DNA of 64,000 bases, taken from Halorhabdus sp. CBA1104. Its GTDB lineage: Archaea > Halobacteriota > Halobacteria > Halobacteriales > Haloarculaceae. The translations under genes and the position numbers were made by a program. Shown one piece after another: positions 41,552 through 59,355 of this stretch (position 1 is the stretch's first letter; the number at the start of each line of letters is the position of its first letter). Under the pieces are notes generated by a model, which saw nothing but the letters and a program-made list of their open reading frames with translations, made no database searches and had not been told where the DNA came from. The stretch lies in contig NZ_CP033878.1 of assembly GCF_009690625.1 (NCBI RefSeq), forward strand, positions 1,674,001 to 1,738,000. The letters run 5' to 3'.

Positions 41552-42412
41552 ATGAGCGACGACGAACGGAAGCTGCTGGATACGGCCGGAGACTACCGGT
41601 ACGCGGTCCGAGACGGAACGGAAGTCTCTGCGTCCGACTGGCAGTCCTGTCGGTTAGTGGTGACCAACAAGCGACTGGTACTGGCCGCCAATGGGTCGAA
41701 TCAGACGCTCCCGCACGGGCGCGTGACGATTCCCGACGACCCCGAGGAGTTCGTCAGCGACGTGGGCGAGACCATCCCGCTGCGGATGGGGTCGAACGTG
41801 ATTGTGGCTTCTGCGGCGGACGATCCGGCGTTCATCCAGACGTACTGTCGGGCGAACGTCGGTGGCGAAGTGGTACTCGTCAGGCACCCGGCAGTCGTGG
41901 GTGGCGTCGTTCAGGAGGAGAGCGACTGGTCGAAAGCCCGATTCGTGATCGACGACGAGCGCTTCAGCCTACAGTTTCCCGATGGCGAAACGGTCGCGTG
42001 TGGGCTCGACGATATCGGGACAGTCGAGACAGAATCCCGGACGGTCATGGGCGAACAACGCGACGTCGTAGAAGTCGAACACACCGATAGCGATGACCGG
42101 AGCGTCGAAACTCACCTCTCGGGGACCGCTCGACACACCTCCGTCCTCCGGACGTTGTTCGATCACCTCGTCGAAGATCGCGACGGCGAGTACGAACTCA
42201 CCGACACCGAAAGTCAAGTCCTGATGGCGCTGTACTCGGGCGTTTCGCCGTTCGAGATGGCTGACTTCGTGGGGATCAGCGTCGATGAAGTCGAGGAGAT
42301 CTACCAGAAACTCCTGGAGGTTGGGGCCGTCGACGAGGTCCGGACGCGGACGGAAGTGTCGTTGAACGCCCAGGGCCGGAACATGGCGAGTGAAGCCATG
42401 AACGAGCAGTGA
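41552..42412 (+). CDS. cheF: Taxis protein CheF, first paralogue
   Basis: A 286-residue archaea-specific CheF (DUF439) protein. CheF proteins link the chemotaxis response regulator CheY and CheC/CheD to the archaellum motor. The protein opens MSDDERKLLDTAGDYRYAVR, has the SDWQSCRLVVTNKRLVL strand pair, VLVRHPAVVGGVVQEESDWS near residue 110, and a C-terminal winged-helix-like part, SQVLMALYSGVSPFEMADFV. A second, clearly related copy is at 55296-56162 (matching HPAVxGGVVQ and SGVSPF blocks). No other che or archaellum genes are in the window. Confidence 0.88.
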   Translation: MSDDERKLLDTAGDYRYAVRDGTEVSASDWQSCRLVVTNKRLVLAANGSNQTLPHGRVTIPDDPEEFVSDVGETIPLRMGSNVIVASAADDPAFIQTYCRANVGGEVVLVRHPAVVGGVVQEESDWSKARFVIDDERFSLQFPDGETVACGLDDIGTVETESRTVMGEQRDVVEVEHTDSDDRSVETHLSGTARHTSVLRTLFDHLVEDRDGEYELTDTESQVLMALYSGVSPFEMADFVGISVDEVEEIYQKLLEVGAVDEVRTRTEVSLNAQGRNMASEAMNEQ

Positions 42413-42629: not shown

Positions 42630-45353
42630 ATGTATCGTCACCGGGGGTTTGGATACCTGATTGTAATCGTCTCAGTGATCGCGGTTACGCTGTTGCTCCT
42701 CGTGAACCCCATTGGATCCGCGGCAGGTCAGCAACCGGTGACGACAGTCGAAGATGCGGACAATGCAACCGGGAGTAACGTCGCTTCCGAGCGTGTTTCG
42801 GTAATCGTCGAGTTCAAAAATACATCGGCACGAGAACAGGCGACGATTCCGGGAGAAGTCTCCGTAACGGGTGGGCAAAACATCACGTTCATGCCAGTGT
42901 TGTTTATGCAAGGACCGAGATCCGCTTTTGAAGCCCTCGAAGACCGGGCTAGCGTCATCGCAGTCAAAAGGGATTCCAGGGTCGCTGTTGAGCCCCCTCA
43001 GGCCACGGATCCGAGTGTGTCGACAAGTGAACAGGTATCGGCGGCAAACCAGGTTGTTCCATGGGGGGCCGACCGGATTTCCGCGCAGGACGGAAGAGAG
43101 GCCGTTTCTGAGACAGCCATCGGAGACGTCGACGTCGCAGTACTCGATACTGGAATCGATTATACGCACAGTGACCTAGAAACAGTTCGGTGGGGTGCAA
43201 ACTTCTCGAACGGTGTCACGAGGTTCGGTCGCTCGACAGCACTGGACAATCAGGGACATGGAACCGCCGTGGCTGGCGTCGTCGCTGCAGCCGACGACGA
43301 GGACGACGTCGTCGGTGTTGCACCCGGAGTGGATCTGTACGCGATTAAAGTGATGAACCGATCCGGCGAAGGACGCCTCAGTTGGGTTATCAACGGCATC
43401 GATGCGGCCCTGAAAGGTGCAGACGGCGAACTCGGCACCAACGACGACGCGGAGGTACTGTCGTTGAGTCTCGGTTCGGCCACGGGTGCGAGTTCTTTAC
43501 AGGACGCAATCAATGCAGCGAGCGACCACGCCGTTGTCGTCGCCGCGGCAGGGAATGGCGGAGACGGAGACGTGTCGACTGATGAGGTCACATACCCGGC
43601 CAGATACGACGGTGCGATAGCTGTCGCGGCCACCGATCGATCGGACGAGACGCCGGCGTTCAGTGCCGAGGGGGCGGCTGTCGAACTGGCAGCGCCTGGC
43701 GTCGACGTCACGACAACGTGGCTGGGTGGCGGGACGATCACCGCCTCAGGAACCTCTCTCGCGACGCCACACGTCGCAGGGACAGCGGCGATCGTGATTG
43801 CACAGGACCTCGAAGACGGTGATCGGGATCGATCGCCCAACGACGTTCGGACGGGGTTACAGGAGACAGCGATAGATATCGAGGGGGACGGGATCGACAA
43901 ACGGAGTGGATACGGCCTGGTGAACGTGACTGCGGCCCTGGGGATCAAGCCCGCCGAACCGGCCACGTTCTCGATTGAGTCTCTCTCGCCAGGACCCGTC
44001 TCTATCGTCCACGGCGAGTCGGTCACCGTTTCGGCTACGATCACGAATACAGGTGGACAAGCCGGCACGGAGACGGTTGCGCTCCGACTCAACGGTTCGG
44101 TGATCGCTGAGCGATCGGTGACCCTAGATACCAACGAGTCCGAGACGATCACCATTGGAAATGTCTTTGCGGATTTGAGTCCAAATGACTACGAGTACAG
44201 TCTCTCTACCGGGAGTGAAAGCGTAACTGCATTGCTGACCGTCCAGAATCCCGCCCAGTTTGTCGTCAGGGAACTCTCGCCGGGCAACGTTTCGATTTCG
44301 TCAGGGGACACGGTGACGATCAATGGAAGTGTCAAAAACACTGGCGACGTGGCAGGAGCGCAAGTAGTCTCGGTCTGGTTCGACGACGAGGTGTTGACAG
44401 AGCGTAACCTATCATTGTCTGCTGGTGAAACCCAGGCGATACCGATCACTGACACCGAAGTGAGTGATTTCGATCCAGGATCGTACTCCTACGGGGTGAA
44501 GACTGAAAACGACAGTCGTTGGGCGACGCTTCGAATACGCCCGCACGACATCGCTGTCGTGACTCCGATCCGAGTCGTCCCGGGACGCAATGCAACAGTG
44601 AGCTACACGATATCAAACGACGATGCCGAAGTCGCCCAGAACGTCTCGCTCGCGGTCGAAGCGCAGTCTGCCGGCGTAACCGTGCGTCCGACGAATCAGT
44701 CCCTGCCGGATGGACTGCCAGCCGGCGCTGTCTGGACAACGAACGTCACGCTGGCAGTGGATCGTGACGTCCATCGAGGGGAGGTACGCGTTACTGGTGT
44801 CGCAACGCTCGATGGCGAGAGCGTGCGTGTGAACAAAACAGTCCCAGTGTCACGGACCGACGTGACGCTACATGCTCCGGATCGACTCACGACGACGCCC
44901 GGATCATCGGTAAACATTAGCTATACACTGGCAAACACGGGCCTTACCCAGCCGTCTGCGGGTGCGATCTCTCTCCCGTCGGTGACCGATCCGCTTTCGG
45001 TAAACGGATCCGACGCCGCGTTCCTTGGCCTCGGATCGCCGGTGCCAGCGCCCGGAGAATCGGTCGAGCACACCTTCCGACTTGACGTTCCAGCGTCGAC
45101 ACCATCCGGGACGTATGCGATCACCGGACAGGGGAATCTTGGTTCCGATGTTGCCGAGCAGACGAACACGACCATCGTCGTTCGCGACGGGATCGACCGG
45201 TTCGATCAGTACGAACCATCCGGTGAGATCGGTCTCCAGGACGTCCTGGCCACGATCAACGCGTACAACAACGGTGACCAGATCGGTGACGACGAAGTGA
45301 GTATCAGGGATGTCCTGGACGTGATTAGTGCGTATAATGACAGGAGTGACTAG
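42630..45353 (+). CDS. Secreted S8 subtilisin-like protease with CARDB-type repeats and C-terminal dockerin
   Basis: A 907-residue exoprotein. Residues 7-33 form an N-terminal hydrophobic signal. The S8 domain has catalytic Asp173 (VLDTGIDYTHSD), His210 (NQGHGTAVAGVVAA), oxyanion Asn309 (AAAGNGGDG) and Ser376 (SGTSLATPHVAGTAAI). Four Ig-like CARDB/NEW3-type domains follow between about 445 and 850, rich in N-x-S/T sequons. The last 55 residues are a dockerin-type pair, FDQYEPSGEIGLQDVLATIN and DEVSIRDVLDVISAYN. It is predicted to be active outside the cell. Its stop shares CTAG (45350-45353) with the convergent gene. The 217-base gap before it holds CTATATGT near the start as a probable promoter element. 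Confidence 0.92.
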   Translation: MYRHRGFGYLIVIVSVIAVTLLLLVNPIGSAAGQQPVTTVEDADNATGSNVASERVSVIVEFKNTSAREQATIPGEVSVTGGQNITFMPVLFMQGPRSAFEALEDRASVIAVKRDSRVAVEPPQATDPSVSTSEQVSAANQVVPWGADRISAQDGREAVSETAIGDVDVAVLDTGIDYTHSDLETVRWGANFSNGVTRFGRSTALDNQGHGTAVAGVVAAADDEDDVVGVAPGVDLYAIKVMNRSGEGRLSWVINGIDAALKGADGELGTNDDAEVLSLSLGSATGASSLQDAINAASDHAVVVAAAGNGGDGDVSTDEVTYPARYDGAIAVAATDRSDETPAFSAEGAAVELAAPGVDVTTTWLGGGTITASGTSLATPHVAGTAAIVIAQDLEDGDRDRSPNDVRTGLQETAIDIEGDGIDKRSGYGLVNVTAALGIKPAEPATFSIESLSPGPVSIVHGESVTVSATITNTGGQAGTETVALRLNGSVIAERSVTLDTNESETITIGNVFADLSPNDYEYSLSTGSESVTALLTVQNPAQFVVRELSPGNVSISSGDTVTINGSVKNTGDVAGAQVVSVWFDDEVLTERNLSLSAGETQAIPITDTEVSDFDPGSYSYGVKTENDSRWATLRIRPHDIAVVTPIRVVPGRNATVSYTISNDDAEVAQNVSLAVEAQSAGVTVRPTNQSLPDGLPAGAVWTTNVTLAVDRDVHRGEVRVTGVATLDGESVRVNKTVPVSRTDVTLHAPDRLTTTPGSSVNISYTLANTGLTQPSAGAISLPSVTDPLSVNGSDAAFLGLGSPVPAPGESVEHTFRLDVPASTPSGTYAITGQGNLGSDVAEQTNTTIVVRDGIDRFDQYEPSGEIGLQDVLATINAYNNGDQIGDDEVSIRDVLDVISAYNDRSD

Positions 45354-48300
45354 TTGGTCGTATAAGCCGAAATCAAGTCGAGGACCTCTCGAATACTAAC
45401 CTGTTCCCCGCCAATCGGTTCACCTTCATTGTATGCACTTATCGCATCAAGAACCTCTCCGACCTCGATATTCCCGTCGTTATCCGTGTCAAACCGAGCG
45501 ATATCGGCAGGTAGTTCGGGTTCAGGCCCAGCAGGTTTCTGAATATCATCGTCGTTGATGGTTGTAGAAACTTGCCCAGACCCTTCTGGATCGTCAGCAG
45601 TGAATTCAACTTCCGATGTCTCCTCAGGATACGCAATGTGTCCGATTATGACACCATCAACAACAGTGGTTTCTCCGTTCCGAGCCACTGCCTTCGCTTT
45701 AGTTGGTACTGTCTGCTCGGTGATCGTAGACCCATCAGCATCTTTGACTTGGACTGCCACTCCGCTATCAGCACCCGTTGTTCTCACCTTCGCGTTAGTC
45801 TCTTGAAGTATCGAGAATTCAAACCCATCACTTTTGATTTGACCGACGGCAGAGAACGTCGAAGCGTCCGGGTGTTTATTGACCGGGTTATGTGGCGGCG
45901 TAGGCTTAAAAGGACCGTCATCTTCCATCAACAAACGGGTTGTCACTGCATCGGCCCAAGGATCAGGTTCATATGACATATACGAAGGAGTATTCCGTTC
46001 AATAAAGCTGGAGGAAAAATCTAATTCTGTGTTGAACTTTGTCGATACGATATCCCCTTGCATGTGCATAGGACCCTGTCCATCTCCCTCATCCTTGGCT
46101 AGTTGTCCATCAAATGGCTCGCCCAGGAAGTGATGCCCAGCTTCATGAATGACAGTATCTTCACGGGCATCAATCGTTGCCATTGCCGCAATTCTCGGCT
46201 GAAGCATCCCCGTTCCCAGAGGGGAGTTTATGTGTAGACCCGTTGTATCTGGCTTGTCGCGTACCACGGCAAAGTAATCATCCGGGACTACCGCAATGGT
46301 GACGTCAAACCCGTTAATATCTGGATTGTCGTTTTCGTTCACAAACCCATCAGTCACACTTCCGATCTGATCCGTGTCAAGCCCAGTGACAAAGCTCTGA
46401 TCAATCGAAAGTTGGGCTGCGGTCATATCCGCCGAAATTGCAGCGATCTCCGCACTTGCGCTTCCCGGAACGTATTCCGGGGGACCAGGGATCGCACCTG
46501 CTTGGAGGCCCTCTGCATGGGGCTTTCGATACCAATTAACTTGTGATGTCGGTGCGACACGTTGTGCATATCGCACCCATTCTTTGACTTTTTGCTGATA
46601 CTGCTCTTCAGCAACTGTCCCATAATCCCGCTCGTTGTTCTTATCGTGAACTACTGTAAATCCGATATCTAACGTCGGCATGTCAGTAACACTGAAATCT
46701 GCCGACGAGAGTGACACAGATTTCCTCTCGATAGCCGAATCTTTCGGGTTGACACTCAATTCAACTGACGACAAAGAAGTCGTCGCATCAAAGGTAGGGT
46801 AGGGGCTTTCAAACCGATCCACGATCACATCATCAGGGCCATCAGCGAACGACAGTGGGCGACGAGCGAACTCATCAAGAAGTGACGAGCCTGAAACGAC
46901 CTCATTGAGAACTTCCCCATGGAGTTCTGTAGTGTGTGTTTGAGGACTTCCAGTCGAATCCTCCGTGACTGTTACTTCAACATTGCTTTCGAAAGTCAGT
47001 TCCTGATTCGATTCGAGGTCAAAAACGACTGCAGTCTTACGACCCTCTACTAAATCAGGGTCTGTGGCTTCGATATCATTCGGTGCATCCCCTATCTCCG
47101 AATCGTCCGCTGTTTCCGAGTTGCCAATACGCGTGTTCTCTACGGTCTGCACTAATCTCGGGTTAGTGATCTGTACTTCCCCTCCAGCCTCACTCTCTTC
47201 AATAGTCACTGTTTCAGTGACAGAAACTTGCCCTACTTTCACGGTGATTTCATCTGTTCCGGAATCACTGGTCTGTGTGTTCCATGTGAGCGAAACGTCC
47301 GTCGATTCACCGGCACCGAGGTGAATAGATGCAGCAGGAGTGATCTGATTACCATCGAAATCGTAGAGTGAAACGACATCGGTCTTCGTCTCGTTCGAAA
47401 TGTTGGTCACTGTTGCCTCAACTTCGAGTGTCTCACCGGCGTTGATCGGATCGTTCACTGACGTGATCGAGAGATCGTAGTTACCCTGCGTGACAGTGAA
47501 CTCCTCAGTCACGGCGACGTCTCGTGCCCCACACATTTTCTCGACAGTCAATCGAGCTTCGTAGGTTCCGGCCGACGTATACGTGTGCGTCGCTTGCTCG
47601 CCGGTCGCATCAGTCACGCCGTTGTTATCGAAGTCCCACATGTAGGCGACTAAACTGCCACCGTTGGGGGTACTCGGTGACCCATCGAACGAGACGGGCT
47701 GTCCGACGACCGCGCTCGTCGGAGGGCTATCGAACCGTGCCGTCGGAAGCGGCGCACACGGGGCCTCGTACGTTCCAGTGTCAGAGCCGCTATCGCCGTT
47801 ATAGTTCGCTGTGACCGTGACGTCCCGGATGGTTCCGTCAGTCGCGGTGTTCGTCGTCTCGTAAGTAATCTCGTACTCGTCGGCGATGCTCTGACTGATA
47901 CGATCGTAAATCGTCGCAAGATCCGAGCTGTCCGGTGCGAAATGATAGGTGCCGCCAGTGTCGTTCGCAAGCGTCTGTAGATCAGATTCGTCAGCGTCTG
48001 AACCGAGTCCGATCGTATACACTGGGACGTTGCTCTCCTGGGCAGCGGTGATTGCCTCGTTCAACGTCGTTGATTTTGTGTTTTTGCCATCTGTGAGAAC
48101 GACGACAGCCGATCGTCCGACACGTGGAGCAGCTTGTTCGACACCCCTCTTCGTGGCCCCCCAGAGATTCGTCCCTCCGCCGGCACTGATCGTGTCGATA
48201 GCACCAGTCAACTCCGATTCGTCCTTCGACCAACGTTCTTTGAACTCAATCGTGTCGTGAAAGGCAATGATCTGCCCTTCGTCCTCAACCTGGAATTGTT

Positions 48301-48724
48301 GGACGAAGTCTTTTGCAGCGGCACGGGCATCGCTGATTTTCGTCCCAGCCATACTGCCACTGCGATCGATGACGATCGAGACGCTAACGTCCGAAGTGTT
48401 GCTACTTTCAGGCGCAACAAGCGACTCAATCGACTGCGTAGTACCGTCCTCTGCGACCGAAAAGGCACTTGACGAGAGGCCCGTGACCGGATTGTTGTTC
48501 GAATCAGTAACGCTCGCGTATACCTTCACCGTGGGGAACTTTGGGTCCGTTCTGGCGACGATCTGTCGTACGTCGACGTTCAGATTGCCGTTGGCGGCGA
48601 TAGCCTCCGAAACGAGCGTCGTGGATCCGAACGCCCCCGCCCCGGCGAGTTGCAACACGCGACGGCGATCGAGCGACATCGTCGACAAATCGAGTTCGTC
48701 GTTGCCAGACTCTTTGTCCGACAT
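45350..48724 (-). CDS. Tat-exported VWA / PKD / zincin-like multidomain protein with C-terminal dockerin
   Basis: A 1124-residue exoprotein. The Tat signal is LDRRRVLQLAGAGAFG (residues 18-33). A von Willebrand factor A domain has the MIDAS sequence VIDRSGSMAGTKI (Asp120, Ser122, Ser124). A PKD domain near 370-450 has AYMWDFDNNGVTDATGEQAT, and a CARDB-like domain follows. The region around 860 has VIHEAGHHFLGEPFD, an HExxH zinc-protease motif with a nearby Glu, so a metallopeptidase is likely. The C-terminal ARFDTDNDGNIEVGEVLDAI and EQVSIREVLDLISAY form a dockerin pair. Codon use in the middle looks more AT-rich than its neighbours, hinting at acquisition. Start at ATG 48724. Confidence 0.88.
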   Translation of the reverse strand: MSDKESGNDELDLSTMSLDRRRVLQLAGAGAFGSTTLVSEAIAANGNLNVDVRQIVARTDPKFPTVKVYASVTDSNNNPVTGLSSSAFSVAEDGTTQSIESLVAPESSNTSDVSVSIVIDRSGSMAGTKISDARAAAKDFVQQFQVEDEGQIIAFHDTIEFKERWSKDESELTGAIDTISAGGGTNLWGATKRGVEQAAPRVGRSAVVVLTDGKNTKSTTLNEAITAAQESNVPVYTIGLGSDADESDLQTLANDTGGTYHFAPDSSDLATIYDRISQSIADEYEITYETTNTATDGTIRDVTVTANYNGDSGSDTGTYEAPCAPLPTARFDSPPTSAVVGQPVSFDGSPSTPNGGSLVAYMWDFDNNGVTDATGEQATHTYTSAGTYEARLTVEKMCGARDVAVTEEFTVTQGNYDLSITSVNDPINAGETLEVEATVTNISNETKTDVVSLYDFDGNQITPAASIHLGAGESTDVSLTWNTQTSDSGTDEITVKVGQVSVTETVTIEESEAGGEVQITNPRLVQTVENTRIGNSETADDSEIGDAPNDIEATDPDLVEGRKTAVVFDLESNQELTFESNVEVTVTEDSTGSPQTHTTELHGEVLNEVVSGSSLLDEFARRPLSFADGPDDVIVDRFESPYPTFDATTSLSSVELSVNPKDSAIERKSVSLSSADFSVTDMPTLDIGFTVVHDKNNERDYGTVAEEQYQQKVKEWVRYAQRVAPTSQVNWYRKPHAEGLQAGAIPGPPEYVPGSASAEIAAISADMTAAQLSIDQSFVTGLDTDQIGSVTDGFVNENDNPDINGFDVTIAVVPDDYFAVVRDKPDTTGLHINSPLGTGMLQPRIAAMATIDAREDTVIHEAGHHFLGEPFDGQLAKDEGDGQGPMHMQGDIVSTKFNTELDFSSSFIERNTPSYMSYEPDPWADAVTTRLLMEDDGPFKPTPPHNPVNKHPDASTFSAVGQIKSDGFEFSILQETNAKVRTTGADSGVAVQVKDADGSTITEQTVPTKAKAVARNGETTVVDGVIIGHIAYPEETSEVEFTADDPEGSGQVSTTINDDDIQKPAGPEPELPADIARFDTDNDGNIEVGEVLDAISAYNEGEPIGGEQVSIREVLDLISAYTTN

Positions 48725-49213
48725 GGGCACACACGACACAACGAACCCCTTTAGTCGTTGCGGGTGACACAATATTACCAGCCAAGACGAGAACAACTGA
48801 GCCAGTCCGGGTGCACGCGCGAAGGATCCCCAGCCTCTGAACCCACTGTCTGACGCACGCGACGAGATGCACCGGATAGGAAAGAAGGGGGTGGTAGAGG
48901 GGGTAATAAATGCTTTGTGGCAGCCGTCAGATCGAAAAGGCTTCAAACGGGTGAATCTGGGGGGCAGGGAAACTGAGAATCCATTTGGAGGGGGTTGCCA
49001 AACCCGGGGTGAACCAGAAAGCATTTACCACATTCGGTAGATTGGTTCGAACGTGAACCGTCAGTACCCAGTCGCCTCACTCACACTCCTCACGAGCGAG
49101 TGGGATGGACTGAGGGACCTGACGGTCCAAAATATGGATCAGCGTACTACACTTCAATTAGGCAACGGGTCGTATCGGGCGACGAACGACGACCACGCAA
49201 CAATCAATAACAC
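48725..49213. other. Long divergent intergenic region between two exoprotein genes
   Basis: 489 bases without a convincing gene. It contains a GGGTAATAAATGCTTT patch (48901-48916) and, 101 bases on, the exact reverse complement of its 10-base core (AAAGCATTTA, 49018-49027). A CAAAATATGGATC patch (49129-49141) and CAATAACACATG before the start at 49214 are the AT-rich elements closest to the S-layer-like gene. A long 5' leader, as known for S-layer genes in some haloarchaea, is possible but not shown. Confidence 0.4.
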
Positions 49214-52200
49214 ATGACAGGAAATTCAACACCAACTGAGAAGGCAAGGGCACTATTCCTTGCCGCTCTCATGGTGCTGTCCGTCTTTGCCGCGACCGCA
49301 GCGTTTGCGGGCTCGGCAGCGGCGGCAGTAAACACTGGTCAAGCCGACACCATTGATCTTGACAGTGATACGGTCACTGAAGGGACCAATGCCAGTGGTA
49401 CCGTGAACGTATCGGACAACTCAACAGACGTGCAAGTCTGGATTGACGTCGACGACAATGGTCAGTATGATTCTACGGAACCGAACGTTACTGTCGATAA
49501 TAGTACGTTCGAAACTGAAACTGACCCAATTGACGTAGCCTTCGACGGCCTGAATACAACAGGGCTGGAGACAGGTACCTACAACGTCTCGGTCAACCAG
49601 ACTGACACGATCTCAACCGGAACGCTGGCCACAGCGAACGAGAGCCTCGATGTCGAACAGGTTCTCGTCACTGACCTGAGCGCGCCGCGCGTGGCTCCGA
49701 ACGCCTCTGACATCACTATCGAGGCGACCATTGAGAACGTCGGGGCGTCCGCTCAGGAAGTCAACGTCACGCTGGGTGCCGCTAACAACAGCGGCAACGT
49801 GGAAGCTGGCTCTCCTGAAGTCGAGATCGCCTACGACAACCAGACTGAACTCGCCAGTGGTGACAGTTTCACTGTCGAGTTCACGCCGAACAGCTACTAC
49901 AACTACACTGCGAATAACATCAACCAGTCGGAAGACGTCTATCACGGCGTCTACGTCCTGAACAACGACACTGCGAATACCTTCCAGGATGGAGCAGAAG
50001 CTCCGTTCTTCATTGGCGGGAGTGACATTCGTGGTGCCGTTGAGGCCGAGGTCACTAACGACAATGGTAATCCGATTGAGGATGCCAACGTCAGCCTGTA
50101 CATCAACAGTGTTGACCCGACTAATCTGGTCGACAGAGGAGTCGCATCCGGAGGTAACGATGGCAACTTCATCCGGTTCACTGATCTCGCGATCGGTAAC
50201 GATCAGAACACCGGTGTCCAGTACATTGTCCGAGCGAATCAGGAAACGTTCCAGGCGGACAACCGTGGCGCACTGCTCCACGAGAACAACGTCGAGGAAA
50301 CGGTTTCCCCGACCCTCATCTCCAACCTGGACGCCCAGGGTATAGAGATCGTCCGTGCTGATGACCTCACCGACAAGAGCAACGCGACGTTGCTCGCGGA
50401 CGGGAACTCGGACAACACGGCCGAGTTCGCCGTGATCACGCAGAACCAAATCAACGAAAGTATCTCCGGTTCGTTGGACGTGAACCTCGCGTTCAACGAT
50501 GCGGTGAACTCGTCTGGTGACTTCATCAACAACGATGCGATAGACCGCTCGACGACGGTCACCATCAGCGGTAGTAACACGGCATCGATCGACGAATCGG
50601 TCGGTGACGTGAACGCTGGTGAAGTGAGCTACACGACCTTCGAAGTCACCGCGGACAACGCGACCGCCGAACGGTTGCAGAGTCTCGGTGACGATCCGAT
50701 CGGCACGTACCTCTTCGACGCGGAAGCGACGAACGAGAGTACCACCCTCACGGACACGGCATCCGTCGACTACGTCCTTGAAGGCAACGACGTCCTGACT
50801 GGGGATGTCCGGACGCCTGAGGACCTCGACATGGAAGACGTGACCCTGTGGGCAGCGTACGAAGGCCAATCCAACCAGAGCCTTGAGTTCATCCAGGACA
50901 CCTTCGTCAACGCTGAAGGCGATGCCTTCCTGGTTAAAACGAGCGCAGAAGGTGGCTACATGATTGACGGGATCGCGCTGAACGAGACCGTCAATACCGA
51001 TATCCGCCTCTACGCGGTTGCCTCCGAAGAGGCCTACAATAACCTCAACATGACCGATCAGAACGTCGGTCAGTTCGTTGCTTTCGAGGCAACCGTCAAC
51101 ACCTCAGAGTGGCAGGACGTCTCTGATGGCACGCTCAAACAGGCTGAACAGAACGTCAACATCTTCGAAGAGGATGTCGACTTCGAATACCGGATGGATA
51201 TCGAAGTCGAAGACGCTGAGGGTGCTCTTGTCAAGAGCACCGATGTTGCACAGGACGAATCCCGCGAAGTCACTGTTACGGTCGAGAAGCGACCGATCGA
51301 CCGTCAGGGCGAGTGGAGTAGCGATACGGTCGAAGACGGCAAAGAAGTGACCGTCAGTCTTACCGACGACACGCAGGGTAGTCTCGCGGAGACGACTCTG
51401 ACGGTGGAAGACGGTCAGGCAACCACAACGTTCACCGCTGCGTCCGCGGCGGACGGAACGACGAATGTCTCGGCCGAAACCGAGAACGATCTCGGTGAGA
51501 TCAACGCGACATCCGGATCGGACGAAGCCGAGATCAACGTCTTCGGTCCGGCTGCGATCACCGGTGACGTGGTGAACGAAGACAGCCAGAACCTGCCAGG
51601 CGCAACAGTCACACTGTTCGCAGGTGACGACACCGATCTATCGGATCCGTTGACCTCCGTAACGGCTGGGGACGAAGGTTCCTACACCATTTCCGAGGTC
51701 GATGGTCAGCGTCTCCAGAGTGGTGAAGACTACATCGTTGAGGCGGAGTTCAACGGTGAAACGGAGACGCGAACGTTCACCGACTTGTCGGCTGGTACGA
51801 ACGACGGCGACATCGCGATCATCGGTGTCACGCCGCAGGTTGCCGAGTTCGACATCACGAACGTCGATCCCGCTGCCAACGTCAGTGTCGCACCTGGTGA
51901 CACGGTCTCTGTCGACGTGACTGTCGAGAACGTCGGTGACGAGCTCGGCACGAAAGACGTCGAGTTCGTCTTCGACGGGAGTGTCGTTGCCAGTGAATCG
52001 GTCGAACTCAGCGGCGACCAGAACACGACGGTCACGTTCGATGTCACCGCCCCTGACACGGAAGGTGACTACTCGTGGAATGTCCAGACTGAAGACGCTA
52101 CGTCCGACACCTGGACACTGACCGTCGAAGAGAGTGGAAACAACAACGGAACGTCCGATCTGGCCCGCTTCGATGCGGACGGCAGCGGTCAGATCGAGAT

Positions 52201-52321
52201 CGGTGAAGCGCTTGACGCCCTCACGGCGTACAACGAAGGCGGCACGATCGACGGCGACGCAGTGTCCATTGAGGACGTGCTCGCGGTCATCACCGCCTAC
52301 AACGAAGACAGCCAAGTCTAA
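49214..52321 (+). CDS. S-layer-like surface glycoprotein ending in a dockerin domain
   Basis: A 1035-residue exported protein. The signal peptide EKARALFLAALMVLSVFAAT followed by AAFAGSAAAAV is of the haloarchaeal S-layer glycoprotein kind. The body is a chain of Ig-like domains (for example TDLSAPRVAPNASDITIEAT; DIRGAVEAEVTNDNGNPIED; AITGDVVNEDSQNLPGATVT), with many N-x-S/T sequons suited to AglB. The last CARDB-type domain (DITNVDPAANVSVAPGDTVS) precedes a dockerin pair, ARFDADGSGQIEIGEALDAL and DAVSIEDVLAVITAYN. No PGF-CTERM anchor is present, unlike standard S-layer proteins. It is followed 14 bases later by the PGF-CTERM gene, probably one operon. Confidence 0.88.
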   Translation: MTGNSTPTEKARALFLAALMVLSVFAATAAFAGSAAAAVNTGQADTIDLDSDTVTEGTNASGTVNVSDNSTDVQVWIDVDDNGQYDSTEPNVTVDNSTFETETDPIDVAFDGLNTTGLETGTYNVSVNQTDTISTGTLATANESLDVEQVLVTDLSAPRVAPNASDITIEATIENVGASAQEVNVTLGAANNSGNVEAGSPEVEIAYDNQTELASGDSFTVEFTPNSYYNYTANNINQSEDVYHGVYVLNNDTANTFQDGAEAPFFIGGSDIRGAVEAEVTNDNGNPIEDANVSLYINSVDPTNLVDRGVASGGNDGNFIRFTDLAIGNDQNTGVQYIVRANQETFQADNRGALLHENNVEETVSPTLISNLDAQGIEIVRADDLTDKSNATLLADGNSDNTAEFAVITQNQINESISGSLDVNLAFNDAVNSSGDFINNDAIDRSTTVTISGSNTASIDESVGDVNAGEVSYTTFEVTADNATAERLQSLGDDPIGTYLFDAEATNESTTLTDTASVDYVLEGNDVLTGDVRTPEDLDMEDVTLWAAYEGQSNQSLEFIQDTFVNAEGDAFLVKTSAEGGYMIDGIALNETVNTDIRLYAVASEEAYNNLNMTDQNVGQFVAFEATVNTSEWQDVSDGTLKQAEQNVNIFEEDVDFEYRMDIEVEDAEGALVKSTDVAQDESREVTVTVEKRPIDRQGEWSSDTVEDGKEVTVSLTDDTQGSLAETTLTVEDGQATTTFTAASAADGTTNVSAETENDLGEINATSGSDEAEINVFGPAAITGDVVNEDSQNLPGATVTLFAGDDTDLSDPLTSVTAGDEGSYTISEVDGQRLQSGEDYIVEAEFNGETETRTFTDLSAGTNDGDIAIIGVTPQVAEFDITNVDPAANVSVAPGDTVSVDVTVENVGDELGTKDVEFVFDGSVVASESVELSGDQNTTVTFDVTAPDTEGDYSWNVQTEDATSDTWTLTVEESGNNNGTSDLARFDADGSGQIEIGEALDALTAYNEGGTIDGDAVSIEDVLAVITAYNEDSQV

Positions 52322-52326
52322 GGAGG
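52322..52326 (+). promoter_or_regulatory. Strong Shine-Dalgarno sequence before the PGF-CTERM gene
   Basis: GGAGG, nine bases before ATG 52336, directly after the stop codon of the previous gene. A clear internal ribosome binding site in a genome with many leaderless starts supports cotranscription of the two surface proteins with independent, strong initiation on the second. Confidence 0.7.
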
Positions 52327-52335
52327 AAAAACAAA

Positions 52336-55116
52336 ATGACACAGCTACCATCGAAGCTCACGGCAGTCGGCCTGACACTGCTGATGGTGCTTTCGGTCCT
52401 CGCAGTGCCCGTCGCGGCACAGCCGTCAGCCACCCTCACAGCGTCAGATGCGCCGGACTCCGTGAGTCCCGGACAGACGTTTGACGTAACGTATACATTG
52501 ACTAACAACGGTGACGAAGCAGCCAGTAGTGGCGCTATCGAAGTCTCGCTTCCCGACGGAGTCTCCGTCGAGAACGTGGAAGGAGCCGGATCGGGATCGC
52601 CCACCCGGTTCTTCCTGAGTCCGCCTGCTGCAGGCGAATCGGTTGACGTAACCTACACGTTCGCCGTCGCGAGCGACGCGAGCGGCGACCTTAGCATCGA
52701 CGCGGAAGCCACGCTCGGCGACAGCTCCAGCACCGCCACGACCGACGTCACTGTCCAAGCGGACGACGGTGGCGACGGTGACGACGGTGACGAATCCACG
52801 GGGGTCGACGCCGACGCTGAATTCACGAAAGAGCAGCTGAACAACAACCCCGTCGTCTTCCAGGGACAGGTCGTTGCAGTGTCCGGATTCAACGGGCTCG
52901 ATGAGGTTCAGCTCCGCTCGGGCAGCCCCGACGATGGCTCTTTCGAGGAGTACCTCACTCCGAACGATAATGGCATTGTCACCGTCGATACGTCCGAATA
53001 CGGTGACAGCCTCTTCATCCGCGCACAGGGAACGAACTACGGTCCCTTCGAGGTTGGCACGCAGAACGTCGACTTCGAGTTCGCAGAGGACACGGTGAAC
53101 CAGGGCGCCTCGACGACGCTCGACTTCACTGACGACAACCGCGGCGCTGCCGTCGCAGTTGACGTGAGTGCAGACGGGCTCGACGAGGACGATCTCCTGT
53201 CGATCTTCCCCAGCGCGACCGAAGGCGCTGAGGCGGACGACGGAACGGTCCGAGTCGCTGACTTCACCGAAGAGGAGAGCCGCGATGCGAACTTCGACGG
53301 CATCGACACCGGTGACTACGAATTCGCGATCTCGGTCGTTGACACGACCGCAGAAGACACGGCTTCGATCACGGTCGAATCGTCGAGTGTCGGTCAGGCT
53401 CAGTTCACCCAGACCGTCTTCGAGGAAGAGCGTGGTGACGTCGCTGACATGGTCGTCGAGTTCACCGGTGACGGTGAAACGGCGAACATCACGCTCGGTA
53501 GCGAAGAAGCTGGCTACATGGCGAACCTCGAAGTAGCAGACGGTAACGACGACGATCAGGTCACGGTTGAGTGGAACACCTACACCGCTAACGGAGCCGG
53601 TGAATTCTCTGTTGCAGAAGGTGATGACTCCCTGACCGTCAACTCCATCGAGACAGATATCGGTGGTGGCCCTGACGACGTCATCGAAACGGGCAACTAC
53701 GACCTTGAGGCAGACGGTCCTGACGCAGACACGGATGTCGAGACTGTCTCCACGGTGTCGGTCCAACCGCGCTCGACCGACGGAGCAAGCCTCTGGACTG
53801 CGCCCCGAGATACTGACTTCGAAGAGGTCGACGACATCACGAGTGCGATTGACGAGGGTACGCTGACGCAGGACTCCTCGATCGCCGCACAGGACAAACT
53901 CGTCGTCCAACTCGAGGCAAGCGGCCTCGAAGGCGGTCTCGCTGAGTACGACTCGTTCGTTGACTTCGTCAGCAGTTCGGATGCCGTCTCGATGGCAGTC
54001 GAACAGACGAACCCCGTCATGAACTCCCAGCCGAAGACGATCCCGCTCGACGACAACGGCGTGTCGACGATCACCAACGCCGATGACAACGAGTACTTCA
54101 TCGTCTTCGATCTGTCGACCGCTGGGCCCAACGGAACGCCGAGTGACTTCGACACGCGTGACGAGTACGAAACGAAGTTCACAGTCAACGAGAACGAAGA
54201 CGGACTGGCCGAAAGCGATCAGACCGTCAGCGCCGCGTGGGACTACGATGCCCGCACGGCCACCGTTGACACGGGCGAAAATGATATGGTGCAGGTATCA
54301 GCTGCCTCCGACCAGGTAGTCTCCGGGACCACCACGGTCGCAGCTGGTTCCGAGATCAGCCTTCGCGTGCGGAGTACGTCAGACGCTGAGTCCTTCCTCT
54401 TCCCAGCAACGACAACTGTCGAAGCTGGTGAGAACGGACAGAACGTCTGGTCACACAGCTTCGACTTCAGTGAGAAGAAAACGGACACGTCCTTTACGAT
54501 CAATGTCCGCGACTCTCAGTCCACGCAGCTGACTGACGGAAAAGTCGATGGCAAAATCGTCGCAGCACCGACTGCGTCGGTCACCTTCGACGACCAAGAG
54601 ACGACCAGCGGTGAAATCGTCGTCCTGTCGTCCGCTGAGCTCAGCCGCGGAGGCTTCGTCGCCATCCACAACGCTGACGGCGACATCGTCGGCACGACTG
54701 GATACCTCAACGCCGGCGAAGAGCACACCAACGTGCGCGTGCTCCTCAACGAGCCGATGTCGGAGGGTGCTGAACTCACCGCCATGCCGCACATGGATGA
54801 GGACAACAACGCGCAGTTCGATGCGAGCACCGACGGCCCGTACATGGCCGATGGCTCGCCCGTGACGGACTCCGCGCAGGTCGCGCTCCCGACAGAGACC
54901 GCGACGGAAACGGCAACCGAGACGGCAACCGAGACGGCAACCGAGACGGCAACCGAGACGGCAACCGAGACGGCAACCGAGACGGAGACCGCAACCATGA
55001 CGGAAACCGAAACGGAAACCGAGACGACCACCACTAGCGGGCCTGGCTTCACGGCTGTGCTCGCTGTGCTGGCGCTGATCGGCGCTGCACTGCTCGCGGT
55101 CCGCCGCGACCAGTAA
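52336..55116 (+). CDS. PGF-CTERM anchored surface glycoprotein with DUF7282-like domain
   Basis: A 926-residue exported protein. Its signal peptide TAVGLTLLMVLSVLAVPVAA is followed by a CARDB/DUF11-type domain (APDSVSPGQTFDVTYTLTNN, residues 36-135) and an acidic linker. A long beta-rich region comes next (NNNPVVFQGQVVAVSGFNG; VNQGASTTLDFTDDNRGAAV). Residues about 730-850 (ASVTFDDQETTSGEIVVLSS; GGFVAIHNADGDIVGTTGYL) look like a DUF7282 domain. A Thr/Glu repeat linker leads to the PGF-CTERM signal SGPGFTAVLAVLALIGAALL, then VRRDQ, implying archaeosortase A processing and lipid anchoring. It may be the wall-bound partner of the dockerin proteins, but no cohesin is certain. Confidence 0.88.
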   Translation: MTQLPSKLTAVGLTLLMVLSVLAVPVAAQPSATLTASDAPDSVSPGQTFDVTYTLTNNGDEAASSGAIEVSLPDGVSVENVEGAGSGSPTRFFLSPPAAGESVDVTYTFAVASDASGDLSIDAEATLGDSSSTATTDVTVQADDGGDGDDGDESTGVDADAEFTKEQLNNNPVVFQGQVVAVSGFNGLDEVQLRSGSPDDGSFEEYLTPNDNGIVTVDTSEYGDSLFIRAQGTNYGPFEVGTQNVDFEFAEDTVNQGASTTLDFTDDNRGAAVAVDVSADGLDEDDLLSIFPSATEGAEADDGTVRVADFTEEESRDANFDGIDTGDYEFAISVVDTTAEDTASITVESSSVGQAQFTQTVFEEERGDVADMVVEFTGDGETANITLGSEEAGYMANLEVADGNDDDQVTVEWNTYTANGAGEFSVAEGDDSLTVNSIETDIGGGPDDVIETGNYDLEADGPDADTDVETVSTVSVQPRSTDGASLWTAPRDTDFEEVDDITSAIDEGTLTQDSSIAAQDKLVVQLEASGLEGGLAEYDSFVDFVSSSDAVSMAVEQTNPVMNSQPKTIPLDDNGVSTITNADDNEYFIVFDLSTAGPNGTPSDFDTRDEYETKFTVNENEDGLAESDQTVSAAWDYDARTATVDTGENDMVQVSAASDQVVSGTTTVAAGSEISLRVRSTSDAESFLFPATTTVEAGENGQNVWSHSFDFSEKKTDTSFTINVRDSQSTQLTDGKVDGKIVAAPTASVTFDDQETTSGEIVVLSSAELSRGGFVAIHNADGDIVGTTGYLNAGEEHTNVRVLLNEPMSEGAELTAMPHMDEDNNAQFDASTDGPYMADGSPVTDSAQVALPTETATETATETATETATETATETATETATETETATMTETETETETTTTSGPGFTAVLAVLALIGAALLAVRRDQ
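54912..54983 (+). repeat. Six perfect 12-bp tandem repeats inside the surface glycoprotein gene
   Basis: GGCAACCGAGAC repeated six times without mismatch, encoding the (Ala-Thr-Glu-Thr) stalk before the PGF-CTERM segment; degenerate units continue on both sides. Perfect identity of synonymous positions indicates recent slippage or unequal exchange, so stalk length probably varies between strains. Confidence 0.9.
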
Positions 55117-55295: not shown

Positions 55296-56162
55296 ATGAG
55301 TGAAGGCGAACGGAAATTGATGGACGACCGGGGCCAGTTTCTGGAAGCAGTCCAGAATGGGCGTGACGTCCAGGACGCCGACTGGACGCAATGTCGGATC
55401 GTGATTACGACGGCCCGGATCGTCCTCGTCACCGACGAGAAGCGGACGATTCCACTGGACGCGATCAGCGATGTCGGTGGCCGATACGACGTCAACCAGA
55501 ACGCAGCCGGCGTCGCCAGTTACGTGACCGTGCGAATCGAAAACGACGACGTCCTCCTCCTGCGCGCCCCGGAACAAGACGAGTTCGAGACCGATCTCTA
55601 TCGCGCCTTCATCGACAACACGATCCTGTACGTCCAGCACCCGGCAGTCAAAGGCGGCGTCGTACAGGGGACCGAATGGCAGCGGGCGAAGGTGAAACTC
55701 ACCGACGGAGCGATCCAACTGGCGATAGAAGATGGCCAGTACGTCACGATCGGCCGGGACGATATCGGCGACGTCGAGAGCGACGACCAGCAGGTCAATG
55801 GGACAGAACGGCGCGTGTTCGAGGTCGAGCATACCGACGAAGACGGCACGAGTGTCGAGACCCACCTCACGGGCGAGGCCAAGCAGGTCACGATTCTTCA
55901 AGAGGTACTCCAAGAGGGTGCAGAACGCAACCAGGCGAATCTCGACCTTTCTCCGGTCGAACAGCAAGTTATCATGGCGCTGCACTCGGGTGTCTCCCCG
56001 TTCGATCTGCCGGATTTCGTCGAGACGGATGTCGAAGAGGTCGAAGAGATCTTCGACCGGTTGATCGAACTCGACGTCATCGAGACGGTTCGGGAACGGA
56101 CGGAAGTCGAGATGACCTCGCGAGGGCGCCAGGTTGCAAGCGAAGAGATGGGCAATCAGTAG
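55296..56162 (+). CDS. cheF: Taxis protein CheF, second paralogue
   Basis: A 288-residue CheF/DUF439 homologue of the protein at 41552-42412. It opens MSEGERKLMDDRGQFLEAVQ and shares DADWTQCRIVITTARIVLV, YVQHPAVKGGVVQGTEWQRA, VEVEHTDEDGTSVETHLTGE-like sequence and QQVIMALHSGVSPFDLPDFV in the same order. Haloarchaea with two cheF copies use them in archaellum switching and phototaxis/chemotaxis. Its isolation from che genes and its position on the far side of the surface-protein cluster are unusual. Monocistronic, 54 bases before the nucleotidyltransferase gene. Confidence 0.88.
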   Translation: MSEGERKLMDDRGQFLEAVQNGRDVQDADWTQCRIVITTARIVLVTDEKRTIPLDAISDVGGRYDVNQNAAGVASYVTVRIENDDVLLLRAPEQDEFETDLYRAFIDNTILYVQHPAVKGGVVQGTEWQRAKVKLTDGAIQLAIEDGQYVTIGRDDIGDVESDDQQVNGTERRVFEVEHTDEDGTSVETHLTGEAKQVTILQEVLQEGAERNQANLDLSPVEQQVIMALHSGVSPFDLPDFVETDVEEVEEIFDRLIELDVIETVRERTEVEMTSRGRQVASEEMGNQ

Positions 56163-56216: not shown

Positions 56217-57410
56217 ATGAGCAGGCAGACGGCAGTCGTCCTCGCGGCCGGCGAAGGGACCCGACTGCGCCCGCTGACGCGCAACCGGCCAAAACCAATG
56301 TTACCGGCGGGAAACCGCCCGATCCTCGAACACGTTCTGGATGGGCTCGTCGAGACGGGGGTCGAAGAGATCGTCCTCGTCGTCGGGTACAAACGCGACC
56401 GGGTCCAAAATCACTTCGGCCCCAGCTATCGCGGTCGGCCGATTACCTACGTTCGACAGGACAAACAACTCGGGAGCGGGCACGCGCTCTTAGAAGCGAA
56501 AGCGGCTGTCGGAGGGTCGTTCCTCGTCGTCAACGGCGATACGCTGATCGATCCGTCGATCGTCCAAGCTGTCAGTACTGCCTTCGAGACCAGTCAGGCA
56601 CTCGGGACACTGGCCGTCTTGGACGGTCCGAATCCCCACGAGTACGGTGCCGTCGAAGTCGACGGAGAAATAGTCACTGATATTGTCGAAAAGCCCGACG
56701 CCGACGACTATCGACTGATCAACGCAGGCGTCTATGCGTTCGAACAGGATATTTTCGACATCATCGAATCGACGCCCCGGACCCACGGTGAACTGGGCCT
56801 GACCGAGCCCCTCAGTCACGTACTCGAGGACGAACGAATAGAGGCAGTCGAAACGGACGGGAGTTGGGTCGACGCCACGTATCCGTGGGATCTCCTCGAG
56901 TTGACAGGGGAAGTGTTGAGAAGAGGTATCTCCGCTCTCCCCGAGCAAAGACGGGGTGTCTGGATCGCAGACAGCGCCCGCGTCCACGAAACGGCGACTG
57001 TCCGGCCACCGGCGGTGATTGGCCCGGACAGCGAAGTCGGGCCAGGCGCAGTGCTCGGGCCGACAGTGGCACTCGGCCGGAACGTTACCGTGGAAGCGAA
57101 CGCGACAGTCGGTCGGTCCGTCCTCGATGACGATACGCGCGTCGGCCCCGGTAGCACGCTACTCGACACCGTCACCGGCCAGAACGTGCAAGTGGGGGCT
57201 GGCAGCGTCGTCCCTGGCGGTCCCGGATCGGTCGAGGTCGGCGACGAAATCTTCCGTGATCGGCCGCTCGGTGCGCTGCTTGCCGACCGTGTACAGGCCG
57301 ACGGCGGGGTGACAGTCGATCCCGGCACGCTGGTCGGGCCGAATGCCTATCTGGCAACCGGCGTCACCGTCAGCGGTCGCGTGCCCGCAAACGCGGAGGT
57401 GCGTCGGTAA
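56217..57410 (+). CDS. Bifunctional sugar-1-phosphate nucleotidylyltransferase/acetyltransferase (GlmU-like)
   Basis: A 397-residue enzyme activating a sugar-1-phosphate to an NDP-sugar. The N-terminal nucleotidyltransferase has AVVLAAGEGTRLRPLTRNRP, then KPMLPAGNRP and FLVVNGDTLIDPS. The second half is a left-handed beta-helix (TATVRPPAVIGPDSEVGPGA, VLGPTVALGRNVTVEANATV) with hexapeptide repeats, the acetyl-CoA-dependent acetyltransferase fold. With glmS immediately downstream (one-base overlap TAATG), the likely product is UDP-N-acetylglucosamine for glycan synthesis. A glucose- or other sugar-specific enzyme is also possible. Confidence 0.9.
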   Translation: MSRQTAVVLAAGEGTRLRPLTRNRPKPMLPAGNRPILEHVLDGLVETGVEEIVLVVGYKRDRVQNHFGPSYRGRPITYVRQDKQLGSGHALLEAKAAVGGSFLVVNGDTLIDPSIVQAVSTAFETSQALGTLAVLDGPNPHEYGAVEVDGEIVTDIVEKPDADDYRLINAGVYAFEQDIFDIIESTPRTHGELGLTEPLSHVLEDERIEAVETDGSWVDATYPWDLLELTGEVLRRGISALPEQRRGVWIADSARVHETATVRPPAVIGPDSEVGPGAVLGPTVALGRNVTVEANATVGRSVLDDDTRVGPGSTLLDTVTGQNVQVGAGSVVPGGPGSVEVGDEIFRDRPLGALLADRVQADGGVTVDPGTLVGPNAYLATGVTVSGRVPANAEVRR

Positions 57411-59215
57411 TGTGTGGGATCATCGGGTGCGTGGGCCACGGCGCCGACACGACCGACGTGTTGCTCGAAGGACTCTCGACCCTGGAGTACCGTGGATACG
57501 ACTCGGCAGGCGTCGCCGTCGCCAACGGCAGTGTCGATGTCGTCAAACAGGCAGGGACGATCGACGAGCTCGTTGCGACCGTGCAAGGAAACACGCCGGA
57601 CGGAGCGGTCGGGATCGGCCATACGCGCTGGAGTACCCACGGTCCGCCGACCGACGAGAACGCCCATCCCCACGTCGACTGTACTGGCGACGTCGCCGTT
57701 GTCCACAATGGAATCATCGAGAACTACCAGGCACTGCGGGAGCAACTCGAGGCCGAGGGCCACACCTTCGAGAGCGACACTGACACCGAAGTTGTGCCCC
57801 ATCTGATCGAGACGGAACTCGCGGGCGGGGACGCACCCGAGGCGGCCGTCAGGCGGGCCGTCGATCACCTGGAGGGGAGCTTCGCTGTAGCGGCCGTGAT
57901 CAGTGGGTGTGACGCGATCTTTGCCGCCAGACACGACTCGCCGCTCGTACTGGGACTCGACGAGACTGCGGGGGGCGACCACCATTATTACCTGGCCAGT
58001 GACGTCCCGGCGTTCCGAGAACACACTGATCGGGTGGTGTACCTGAACGACGGCGAGTTCACTCGTCTCGAACCCGACGGGTGGACCGTGACGACCCTGG
58101 CCGGCGAGCCCGTCGAGAAGGCCGTCGATACCGTCGAGTGGGATCCCGAGGAGACGGGCAAAGCCGGCTACGACCACTTCATGCAAAAGGAGATCAACGA
58201 GCAACCCAGGGCGTTGCGACAGTGTCTTTCGGAACGAGTCGACGAACTCGACGGTACGGTCGATATCGGTGATCTGGCGTATCTCAACCCACATGGCGTC
58301 CACCTCGTCGCCGCGGGAACGAGCTACCACGCGGCGCTGTACGGCGCGCAGTTGTTCCGGGCCGCAGGCGTTCCGGCCCAGGCGTACCTGGCTCACGAAT
58401 ATGCGACCGGGACGCCACCGATCGGTGACGAACTGGTGATCGGGGTGACCCAGAGTGGGGAGACAGCCGATACGCTGTCGGCACTGCGTGGGGCACGCGC
58501 CCGCGGTGCGCGGACACTCGCAGTGACGAACGTCGTCGGGTCGACCGCCGCCCGGGAGTGTGACGATGCCTTCTACATCAAAGCCGGCCCGGAGATCGGC
58601 GTCGCCGCGACCAAGACCTTCGCCTCCCAGCTCGTGGCGCTGAACACACTGTCGATCGGCATGGCCCCAAGCAAGGACGATCGAGAGGCGATCGCGGCGT
58701 TGCGGGACGTCCCCGCTGACGTCCAGCAAGTCCTCGATGAGTCCAACGTAGCGGCCGTCGCCGAACAGTATCTCGACAGCGAGGCCTATTTCTTCATCGG
58801 GCGTGGCCACCAGTATCCGGTCGCCCTGGAAGGGGCACTGAAGATGAAAGAGATCACGTACAAACACGCCGAAGGGTTTGCGGCCGGGGAGTTGAAACAC
58901 GGCCCCCTGGCGCTCGTAACGAGTGAGACACCCGTCTTCGCCGTGGTGACCGGTGAGGACGAACGCGCCCAAAAGACGATCGGGAACGTCAAAGAGGTCG
59001 AAGCGCGGGGCGCGCCCGTCGTCGCAGTAACCGACGGGGTGAGCGACGTCTCCCGGTACGCCGATCACGTCCTCTCGATTCCCGAAAGCTCGCCCCAGAC
59101 CGCGGCCGTGGTAGCGAACGTCCAGCTCCAGCTTGCGGCCTACCACACCGCCGCGAAACTGGGCCGGCCGATCGACAAACCGCGGAACCTGGCCAAGAGC
59201 GTAACTGTGGAGTAG
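57410..59215 (+). CDS. glmS: Glutamine--fructose-6-phosphate aminotransferase (isomerizing)
   Basis: A 601-residue enzyme making glucosamine-6-phosphate. The N-terminal glutaminase has the Cys2 nucleophile in MCGIIGCVGHGADTTD, with STLEYRGYDSAGVAVANG and IGHTRWSTHGPPTDENAHPH. Two SIS domains follow, with VHLVAAGTSYHAALYGAQLF, GVTQSGETADTLSALRGARA and FIGRGHQYPVALEGALKMKE, ending PIDKPRNLAKSVTVE. The length is normal. It is coupled to the GlmU-like gene and precedes the glycan epimerase genes, so it supplies amino sugars for surface glycans. Confidence 0.96.
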   Translation: MCGIIGCVGHGADTTDVLLEGLSTLEYRGYDSAGVAVANGSVDVVKQAGTIDELVATVQGNTPDGAVGIGHTRWSTHGPPTDENAHPHVDCTGDVAVVHNGIIENYQALREQLEAEGHTFESDTDTEVVPHLIETELAGGDAPEAAVRRAVDHLEGSFAVAAVISGCDAIFAARHDSPLVLGLDETAGGDHHYYLASDVPAFREHTDRVVYLNDGEFTRLEPDGWTVTTLAGEPVEKAVDTVEWDPEETGKAGYDHFMQKEINEQPRALRQCLSERVDELDGTVDIGDLAYLNPHGVHLVAAGTSYHAALYGAQLFRAAGVPAQAYLAHEYATGTPPIGDELVIGVTQSGETADTLSALRGARARGARTLAVTNVVGSTAARECDDAFYIKAGPEIGVAATKTFASQLVALNTLSIGMAPSKDDREAIAALRDVPADVQQVLDESNVAAVAEQYLDSEAYFFIGRGHQYPVALEGALKMKEITYKHAEGFAAGELKHGPLALVTSETPVFAVVTGEDERAQKTIGNVKEVEARGAPVVAVTDGVSDVSRYADHVLSIPESSPQTAAVVANVQLQLAAYHTAAKLGRPIDKPRNLAKSVTVE

Positions 59216-59332
59216 CTGCCCACGACAGCGGCTTCAACGAGGTTCATTGTGTGGGGGCAGTGCTCCGCACGCCCATTCCGTGTCGCCCCGAAGCCCGGAC
59301 GGAGCCCCCGAACGGGAAGACTTATGCAGATA

Positions 59333-59353: not shown

Positions 59354-59355
59354 AT

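Follow-up and report, generated by a model that had tools for sequence, protein, structure and literature searches.

Pairs of type I dockerins and cohesins are not confined to cellulosomes, and non-cellulosomal pairs, including archaeal ones from ANME, have been described (PMC9012536; Peer et al. 2009, as cited in PMC9012536). Three further systems bear on the organization of archaeal cell coats. The two-component S-layer of the Sulfolobales is encoded by two adjacent genes, one for the unanchored SlaA and the other for the membrane-anchored SlaB, and the N-terminal Ig-like domains of the anchored member face its unanchored partner (PMC10903991). A protease of the subtilisin family, STABLE, is carried on the S-layer of Staphylothermus marinus, which is built of tetrabrachion (PMC5744192). 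Haloarchaeal S-layer glycoproteins (csg) are represented by the HVO_2072 family, and additional N- or C-terminal Ig-like domains have been noted in haloarchaeal S-layer proteins, with no link being drawn to a tag (PMC8640222). Here, we describe a haloarchaeal gene cluster that would work in the manner of a dockerin-cohesin pair, resembles SlaA/SlaB in gene layout and, through a subtilase predicted to be held on the S-layer, recalls STABLE. In the literature searched, which covered few subscription journals, we found no earlier description of a dockerin-tagged haloarchaeal S-layer.

A surface protein cluster in Halorhabdus

The window analysed, a stretch of 64,000 nucleotides, is part of the single 2,628,395-base contig that makes up the 2.63-Mb genome of Halorhabdus sp. 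CBA1104 (G000 among the haloarchaeal genomes compared, which are denoted by G-numbers). Four genes, P1 to P4, which had been delineated in a first-pass annotation of the sequence, were recovered with the same boundaries (Table 1).

Table 1. Genes and domains of the surface protein cluster and its flanks, in positions of the window
Feature	Position	Strand	Evidence or remark
Flanking CheF-arch gene, locus boundary	41552..42412	+	Profile match; kept in G003 locus
P1, 907 aa: secreted subtilase (S8) with CARDB and NEW3-like domains, two of each, and a dockerin-like tag at its C-terminus	42630..45353	+	Pfam S8, 1.8e-47, over cut-off
P1 dockerin-like tag	45192..45350	+	First Ca loop interrupted, second lost
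P2: Tat-exported VWA/PKD protein, 1124 aa, C-terminal dockerin-like tag	45350..48724	-	Pfam VWA, PKD
P2 dockerin-like tag	45353..45511	-	First Ca loop intact, second lost; AF2 model, pLDDT 88
P3, 1035 aa: S-layer-like protein without an anchor; CARDB domain and dockerin-like tag at C-terminus	49214..52321	+	Profile matches; kept as tandem partner of P4
P3 CARDB (Ig-like) domain	51815..52138	+	Top PDB match 3idu (CARDB); site of false sub-cut-off cohesin match
P3 dockerin-like tag	52160..52318	+	Alignment and profile
P4: S-layer glycoprotein-type protein, 926 aa, DUF7827, DUF7282, PGF-CTERM anchor	52336..55116	+	Profile matches; homologues at same position
P4 extra N-terminal Ig-like (DUF11/NEW3/CARDB-type) domain, predicted receptor of tag	52420..52761	+	Profile matches; covariation
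P4 PGF-CTERM archaeosortase signal	55027..55110	+	TIGR04126, 37.8 bits (cut-off 24.5)
Second flanking CheF-arch gene, locus boundary	55296..56162	+	Profile match; kept in G003 locus

Direct reading of the translations revealed the catalytic motifs DTG, GHGT and GTSLATPHVAG in P1, and a Tat-type N-terminus together with a zincin-type HEAGH motif (HExxH) in P2. Among seven congeners searched, P1 orthologues are present only in genomes that also encode P3; for P2, no full-length orthologue was found in 14 other genomes searched. P3 starts with a haloarchaeal surface-glycoprotein signal peptide and aligns with the N-terminal portion of the model for S-layer glycoproteins. The cluster sits between two CheF-arch paralogues, and so does its counterpart in G003 (L104), where the locus between the two CheF genes carries orthologues of P1, P3 and P4. 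Genes for a sugar nucleotidyltransferase, GlmS and epimerase-type proteins follow the cluster (56217-60531) and are possibly involved in S-layer glycosylation.

P3 and P4 as a pair of S-layer-type genes

P3 and P4 are the sole substantial matches to S-layer glycoprotein models in the genome, and P4 ends in the PGF-CTERM anchor characteristic of haloarchaeal S-layer glycoproteins. With 225.6 of the 1100 bits demanded by NF041335, P4 of the window falls far under the equivalog cut-off, and its S-layer role therefore rests on its homologues and on the absence of another candidate. With the S-layer glycoprotein model TIGR04216 (cut-off 400), the homologue in Haloarcula pelagica reaches 975.7 bits and that in Halarchaeum 766.7 bits. 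Given these scores over the cut-off, and a match that begins only at residue 182 and 188, respectively, the S-layer glycoprotein is complete and the N-terminal domain ahead of it is an addition. On the H. pelagica plasmid, the gene downstream of the P3-like gene is annotated csg by NCBI.

The gene order is conserved as well. A P3 gene is followed on the same strand by a PGF-CTERM P4 gene after a gap of 14-80 bp in G000, G003, G004, G380, G230, G040, G219, G392, G080 and G099, and the tandem recurs, again with P3 first and a gap within this range, on the H. pelagica plasmid; in Salinadaptatus, G122, G179, G229 and G247, P4 lies near P3 without being directly adjacent. Tandem P3-like and P4-like genes were seen across several families, and the arrangement of adjacent genes for an unanchored and an anchored S-layer protein is that of a two-component S-layer. 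We also considered that the pair might be a split S-layer gene, P3 and P4 matching different halves of NF041335, yet the homologues of P4 are complete S-layer glycoproteins, which makes P3 an additional protein rather than the missing half of one. Among phage records, none matched P3.

When four profiles of the P4 N-terminal domain were compared with the S-layer proteins of the congeners that have no P3 (G001, G002, G006 and G005), no match was obtained. That the domain is present only alongside P3 is suggestive only, because the S-layer proteins of G002 and G005 start with other N-terminal stretches, which are unclassified.

A dockerin-like tag at the C-termini of P1, P2 and P3

The first-pass annotation had reported that three exoproteins, unrelated over the rest of their length, share a C-terminal segment of about 50 residues, and the alignment bears this out, at 48-52% identity. 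A profile built from the three sequences retrieved exactly three copies from the 2.63-Mb genome, with E below 1e-29 and the next best hit no better than E 0.4. As these three copies all lie inside the cluster, within 7.1 kb, the sharing of the tag is not due to chance.

The segment had further been interpreted as a dockerin-type pair of calcium-loop/helix units, which agrees better with the predicted fold than with the loops. Both helices are predicted, and the AlphaFold model of the P2 tag is a two-helix unit (pLDDT 88). Dockerins take the first four places among its VIA matches (Z 3.1-4.5, aligned over 48-50 of 57 residues); a Foldseek search with the same model returned nothing significant. 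Of the first loops, those of P2 (DTDNDGNIEVGE) and P3 (DADGSGQIEIGE) are intact and of the EF-hand/dockerin kind, and that of P1 (DQYEPSGEIGLQD) is interrupted, whereas the calcium ligands of the second loop are gone in all three. The two calcium loops of Pfam Dockerin_1 (PF00404) are thus found in none of the tags, the first being intact only in P2 and P3, and a search of the genome with this model matched none of the three at E up to 1. Weak matches to EF-hand or dockerin models were found for 2 of 20 members of the tag family. Judging from its modelled structure, the tag is dockerin-like and lies outside the Pfam dockerin family; we prefer this label to family membership because dockerins are the best VIA matches but Dockerin_1 misses the tags. 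A profile of 20 tag sequences identified relatives in 27 of 391 haloarchaeal genomes, mostly at the extreme C-termini of unrelated secreted proteins.

Tail types within and between genomes

Each of the 19 intact members of the P3 family that were recovered first has a duplicated loop-helix tail at its end, as has the 20th, encoded on the plasmid. These tails fall into different sequence types between genomes, and the type of P3 is usually common to neighbouring exoproteins of the same genome, often S8 proteases. For 15 of 21 tail-bearing neighbours, at 12 P3 loci, the P3 tail of the own genome was the best match among the 19, against ~1 expected. S8 subtilases are among these neighbours in G000, G003, G004, Salinadaptatus, G122, G179, G114, G300 and G229; PQQ-propeller, beta-helix and GLUG proteins are found as well. 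The matching of tails within a genome is illustrated by P1, which is 57% identical to its G004 orthologue over the body but 23% over the tail, the tail of the G004 protein being 46% identical to that of its own P3. Exceptions are G229, in which the protease tail is unlike that of P3, and G104, which has 11 such tails and no recognised P3.

Several loci are of interest in their own right. An 88-kb contig of G104 (G104:C7, L106) carries about ten related tails of the NLDVLxAVNAAN type amid transposase-like genes, with no recognised P3. In G247, a 1778-aa ORF (L177:11526-16862) combines an ABC transporter with a long C-terminal part that ends in the tag of its P3, and is possibly a tagged transporter. 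The P3 homologue of Halonotius pteroides (L132:2267-6013) has an abnormal C-terminus, adjoins an integrase-like ORF and looks truncated by insertion.

Covariation of the tail with the P4 N-terminal domain

Across 17 genomes, the pairwise similarity of P3 tails correlated with that of the P4 N-terminal domain (r 0.53, permutation p 0.0002; the domain was taken as residues 1-130 of the mature protein), whereas the other five segments of P4 gave r of -0.06 to 0.10; phylogeny enters the permutation tests only through internal controls, namely the remaining segments of these proteins. The partial r was 0.52 (p 0.0004) with the remainder of P4 and both the core and the N-terminus of P3 controlled for. 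The correlation had first been found with 14 genomes, and leaving out one genome at a time from a set of 15 gave r of 0.49-0.62. In two same-genus pairs, G165/G040 and G071/G099, the P4 cores are similar while tail and N-terminal domain have both changed, and in G165 and G071, which were added later, the two resemble those of G004 and G080. Tails of proteins other than P3 also followed the P4 N-terminal domain, in a small set of 10 genomes (r 0.38, p 0.03). As an exception, G003 has the tail type of the window together with another type of P4 N-terminal domain.

These results make P4, the adjacent PGF-CTERM protein that had been proposed as the anchored partner, the best candidate for this part, and we consider it probable that the S-layer is decorated, with the tag docking P3, P1 and P2 onto the P4 N-terminal domain. 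From sequence comparison and modelling we infer the docking itself, the location of P3 in the lattice and the role of the protease.

Alternatively, the tags might pair with each other (P1 with P3 and P2 with P3), P3 being held in the S-layer by other contacts and the enzymes attaching to P3. Such self-pairing would equally require tail types to be common within a genome and suits a genome with no over-cut-off cohesin, but we regard it as unlikely, as it leaves unexplained both why tails track the N-terminal domain of P4 and no other segment, and why the P4 N-terminal domain of Salinadaptatus is cohesin-like (see below).

The main caveat to docking on P4 is linkage. In most genomes, the 3' end of P3 adjoins the 5' end of P4, at a distance of 14-80 bp, so that one recombination tract could swap both without any binding; the tail could then be a small, stabilising C-terminal cap devoid of a partner, which is exchanged together with the P4 N-terminal domain through DNA adjacency and spread to neighbouring genes by local recombination. 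Matching nevertheless persists where P3 and P4 are separated (by type in G179 and G229, and in G247) and for proteins other than P3, and neither the CARDB domain of P3 just upstream of the tail nor the P4 segment just downstream of the N-terminal domain covaries. Although few, the non-P3 tails and the loci in which another gene separates P3 from P4 appear to argue against linkage, and we rate a partnerless cap as distinctly unlikely.

A further possibility is that the tail is a signal recognised by a machinery for secretion or processing, in the manner of T9SS C-terminal domains, and does not serve the mature protein as a docking module. Its position, nearly always at the extreme C-terminus and in place of a membrane anchor, would be that of such a signal, yet tail carriers use Sec-type and Tat-type signals alike, the predicted fold resembles dockerins, and a sorting enzyme would not account for covariation with the P4 N-terminal domain, which renders this explanation very improbable.

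Cohesins and cohesin-like domains

No cohesin over the Pfam cut-off (PF00963) was found in the 2.63-Mb genome, nor was a cellulosome-type scaffoldin with cohesin repeats. The best match of the genome, a sub-cut-off hit inside P3 (E 9e-4), was rejected, because the structure match places it in the CARDB domain. Absence of cohesins from the genome had been named in the first-pass annotation as grounds for abandoning dockerin-mediated assembly; the absence is real for Pfam cohesins but not decisive, as the receptor predicted here is another kind of Ig-like domain. Among 391 haloarchaeal genomes, canonical dockerins and cohesins are found together more often than expected (107 genomes versus 78.7, p 8e-9), in keeping with assembly of the classical kind, on a scaffold of cohesins whose gene lies elsewhere. 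The window's own tail type, however, is not associated with cohesins (9 genomes observed versus 11.7 expected) and its genome has no over-cut-off cohesin, so that such assembly is extremely improbable here.

In profile searches, the N-terminal domain of the window's P4 matches NEW3, DUF11 and CARDB, not cohesin, and by sequence it is not a member of PF00963. Other types of the domain show a remote likeness to cohesins (70-85% hhalign probability). The domain of Salinadaptatus P4, aligned with its Haloarcula relatives, reaches 92-94% against Pfam-recognised haloarchaeal cohesins, compared with 11-15% for CARDB, and the tails of the P3 and the protease of Salinadaptatus are canonical-dockerin-like. 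With Pfam, no cohesin match was obtained for this domain, and phmmer found no PDB relative; the apparent cohesin likeness is remote and comes only from profile-profile comparison with relatives.

Dockerins and cohesins or cohesin-like domains were encountered in other haloarchaeal settings. Tat-exported GH10 proteins with dockerin tails are encoded in S-layer loci (L104:3922-9452, L136:2529-5456 and L137:8419-11316); the tails are Pfam-recognised in G003 and G006 and assigned by the same tail sequence in G005, and these three genomes have no over-cut-off cohesin. On a plasmid of Haloarcula sp. JP-L23 (L189:6879-11715), one protein contains repeated, remotely cohesin-like and CARDB domains and adjoins a Pfam-dockerin protein with the same domains, which makes it a scaffoldin-like haloarchaeal candidate. 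Large clusters, each with about a dozen cohesins and many dockerins, are present in G072 (C1:470-492 kb) and G224 (C1:77-110 kb), which belong to one haloarchaeal genus.

Discussion

The cluster had initially been described as a dockerin-assembled proteolytic surface complex. This cellulosome-like description gives way to that of a decorated, possibly two-component S-layer, because P4 belongs by type with the S-layer glycoproteins and its main client would be P3 rather than the proteases. P4 would be an ArtA-type, lipid-anchored S-layer glycoprotein with one extra N-terminal Ig-like domain, and P3 a second, unanchored S-layer-like protein that may be held as a second component of the coat. The dockerin-like tag of P3, P1 and P2 is predicted to bind the N-terminal domain of P4; if the latter indeed receives the tag, P3, the protease and P2 would be held on the S-layer, P1 and P2 as enzymes or adaptors. 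The tag and its receptor would exist in several lineage-specific versions, exchanged as matched modules, and the protease may turn over surface proteins, mature them or supply peptides as food.

Like type I dockerins, the tag is a duplicated loop-helix C-terminal module with a dockerin-like predicted fold, found on unrelated exoproteins, and its predicted binding site is a beta-sandwich domain of an anchored protein. Unlike them, it has lost the second calcium loop, does not reach the Pfam dockerin model and comes in many lineage-specific versions; there is no recognised cohesin in the genome, and the predicted receptor is one extra domain of an S-layer glycoprotein. With SlaA/SlaB, the cluster shares two adjacent genes, one for an unanchored S-layer protein and the other for a membrane-anchored one, which has Ig-like structure at its N-terminus that would face the partner. 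The proteins are not homologous, however: the anchored member, P4, belongs to the csg type, which forms the lattice itself, and a dockerin-like tag would provide the link. As in the case of STABLE, a subtilisin-family protease, here P1, is predicted to reside on an archaeal S-layer, but this one is haloarchaeal and its attachment would be through a tag common to other S-layer proteins. Finally, the P4 homologues are csg proteins with a PGF-CTERM anchor, as in the HVO_2072 family; what sets them apart from the proteins previously described is that the extra N-terminal domain is accompanied by a partner gene whose product has a dockerin-like tail, and that the domain and this tail covary.

Extended beyond this locus, these observations hint, with odds that we put slightly better than even, at an exchangeable lock-and-key code in haloarchaeal S-layers, whereby an added N-terminal domain takes the dockerin-like tag of a second coat protein, of subtilases and of other enzymes, yielding a two-component, enzyme-bearing S-layer in which lock and key are swapped together between lineages. 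If so, the code would explain how haloarchaeal exoenzymes that have no anchor stay on the cell, and what the additional Ig-like domains reported for S-layer proteins of haloarchaea (PMC8640222) are for. It would also offer natural orthogonal pairs for surface display, and the archaeal cell coat would be a docking board for enzymes.
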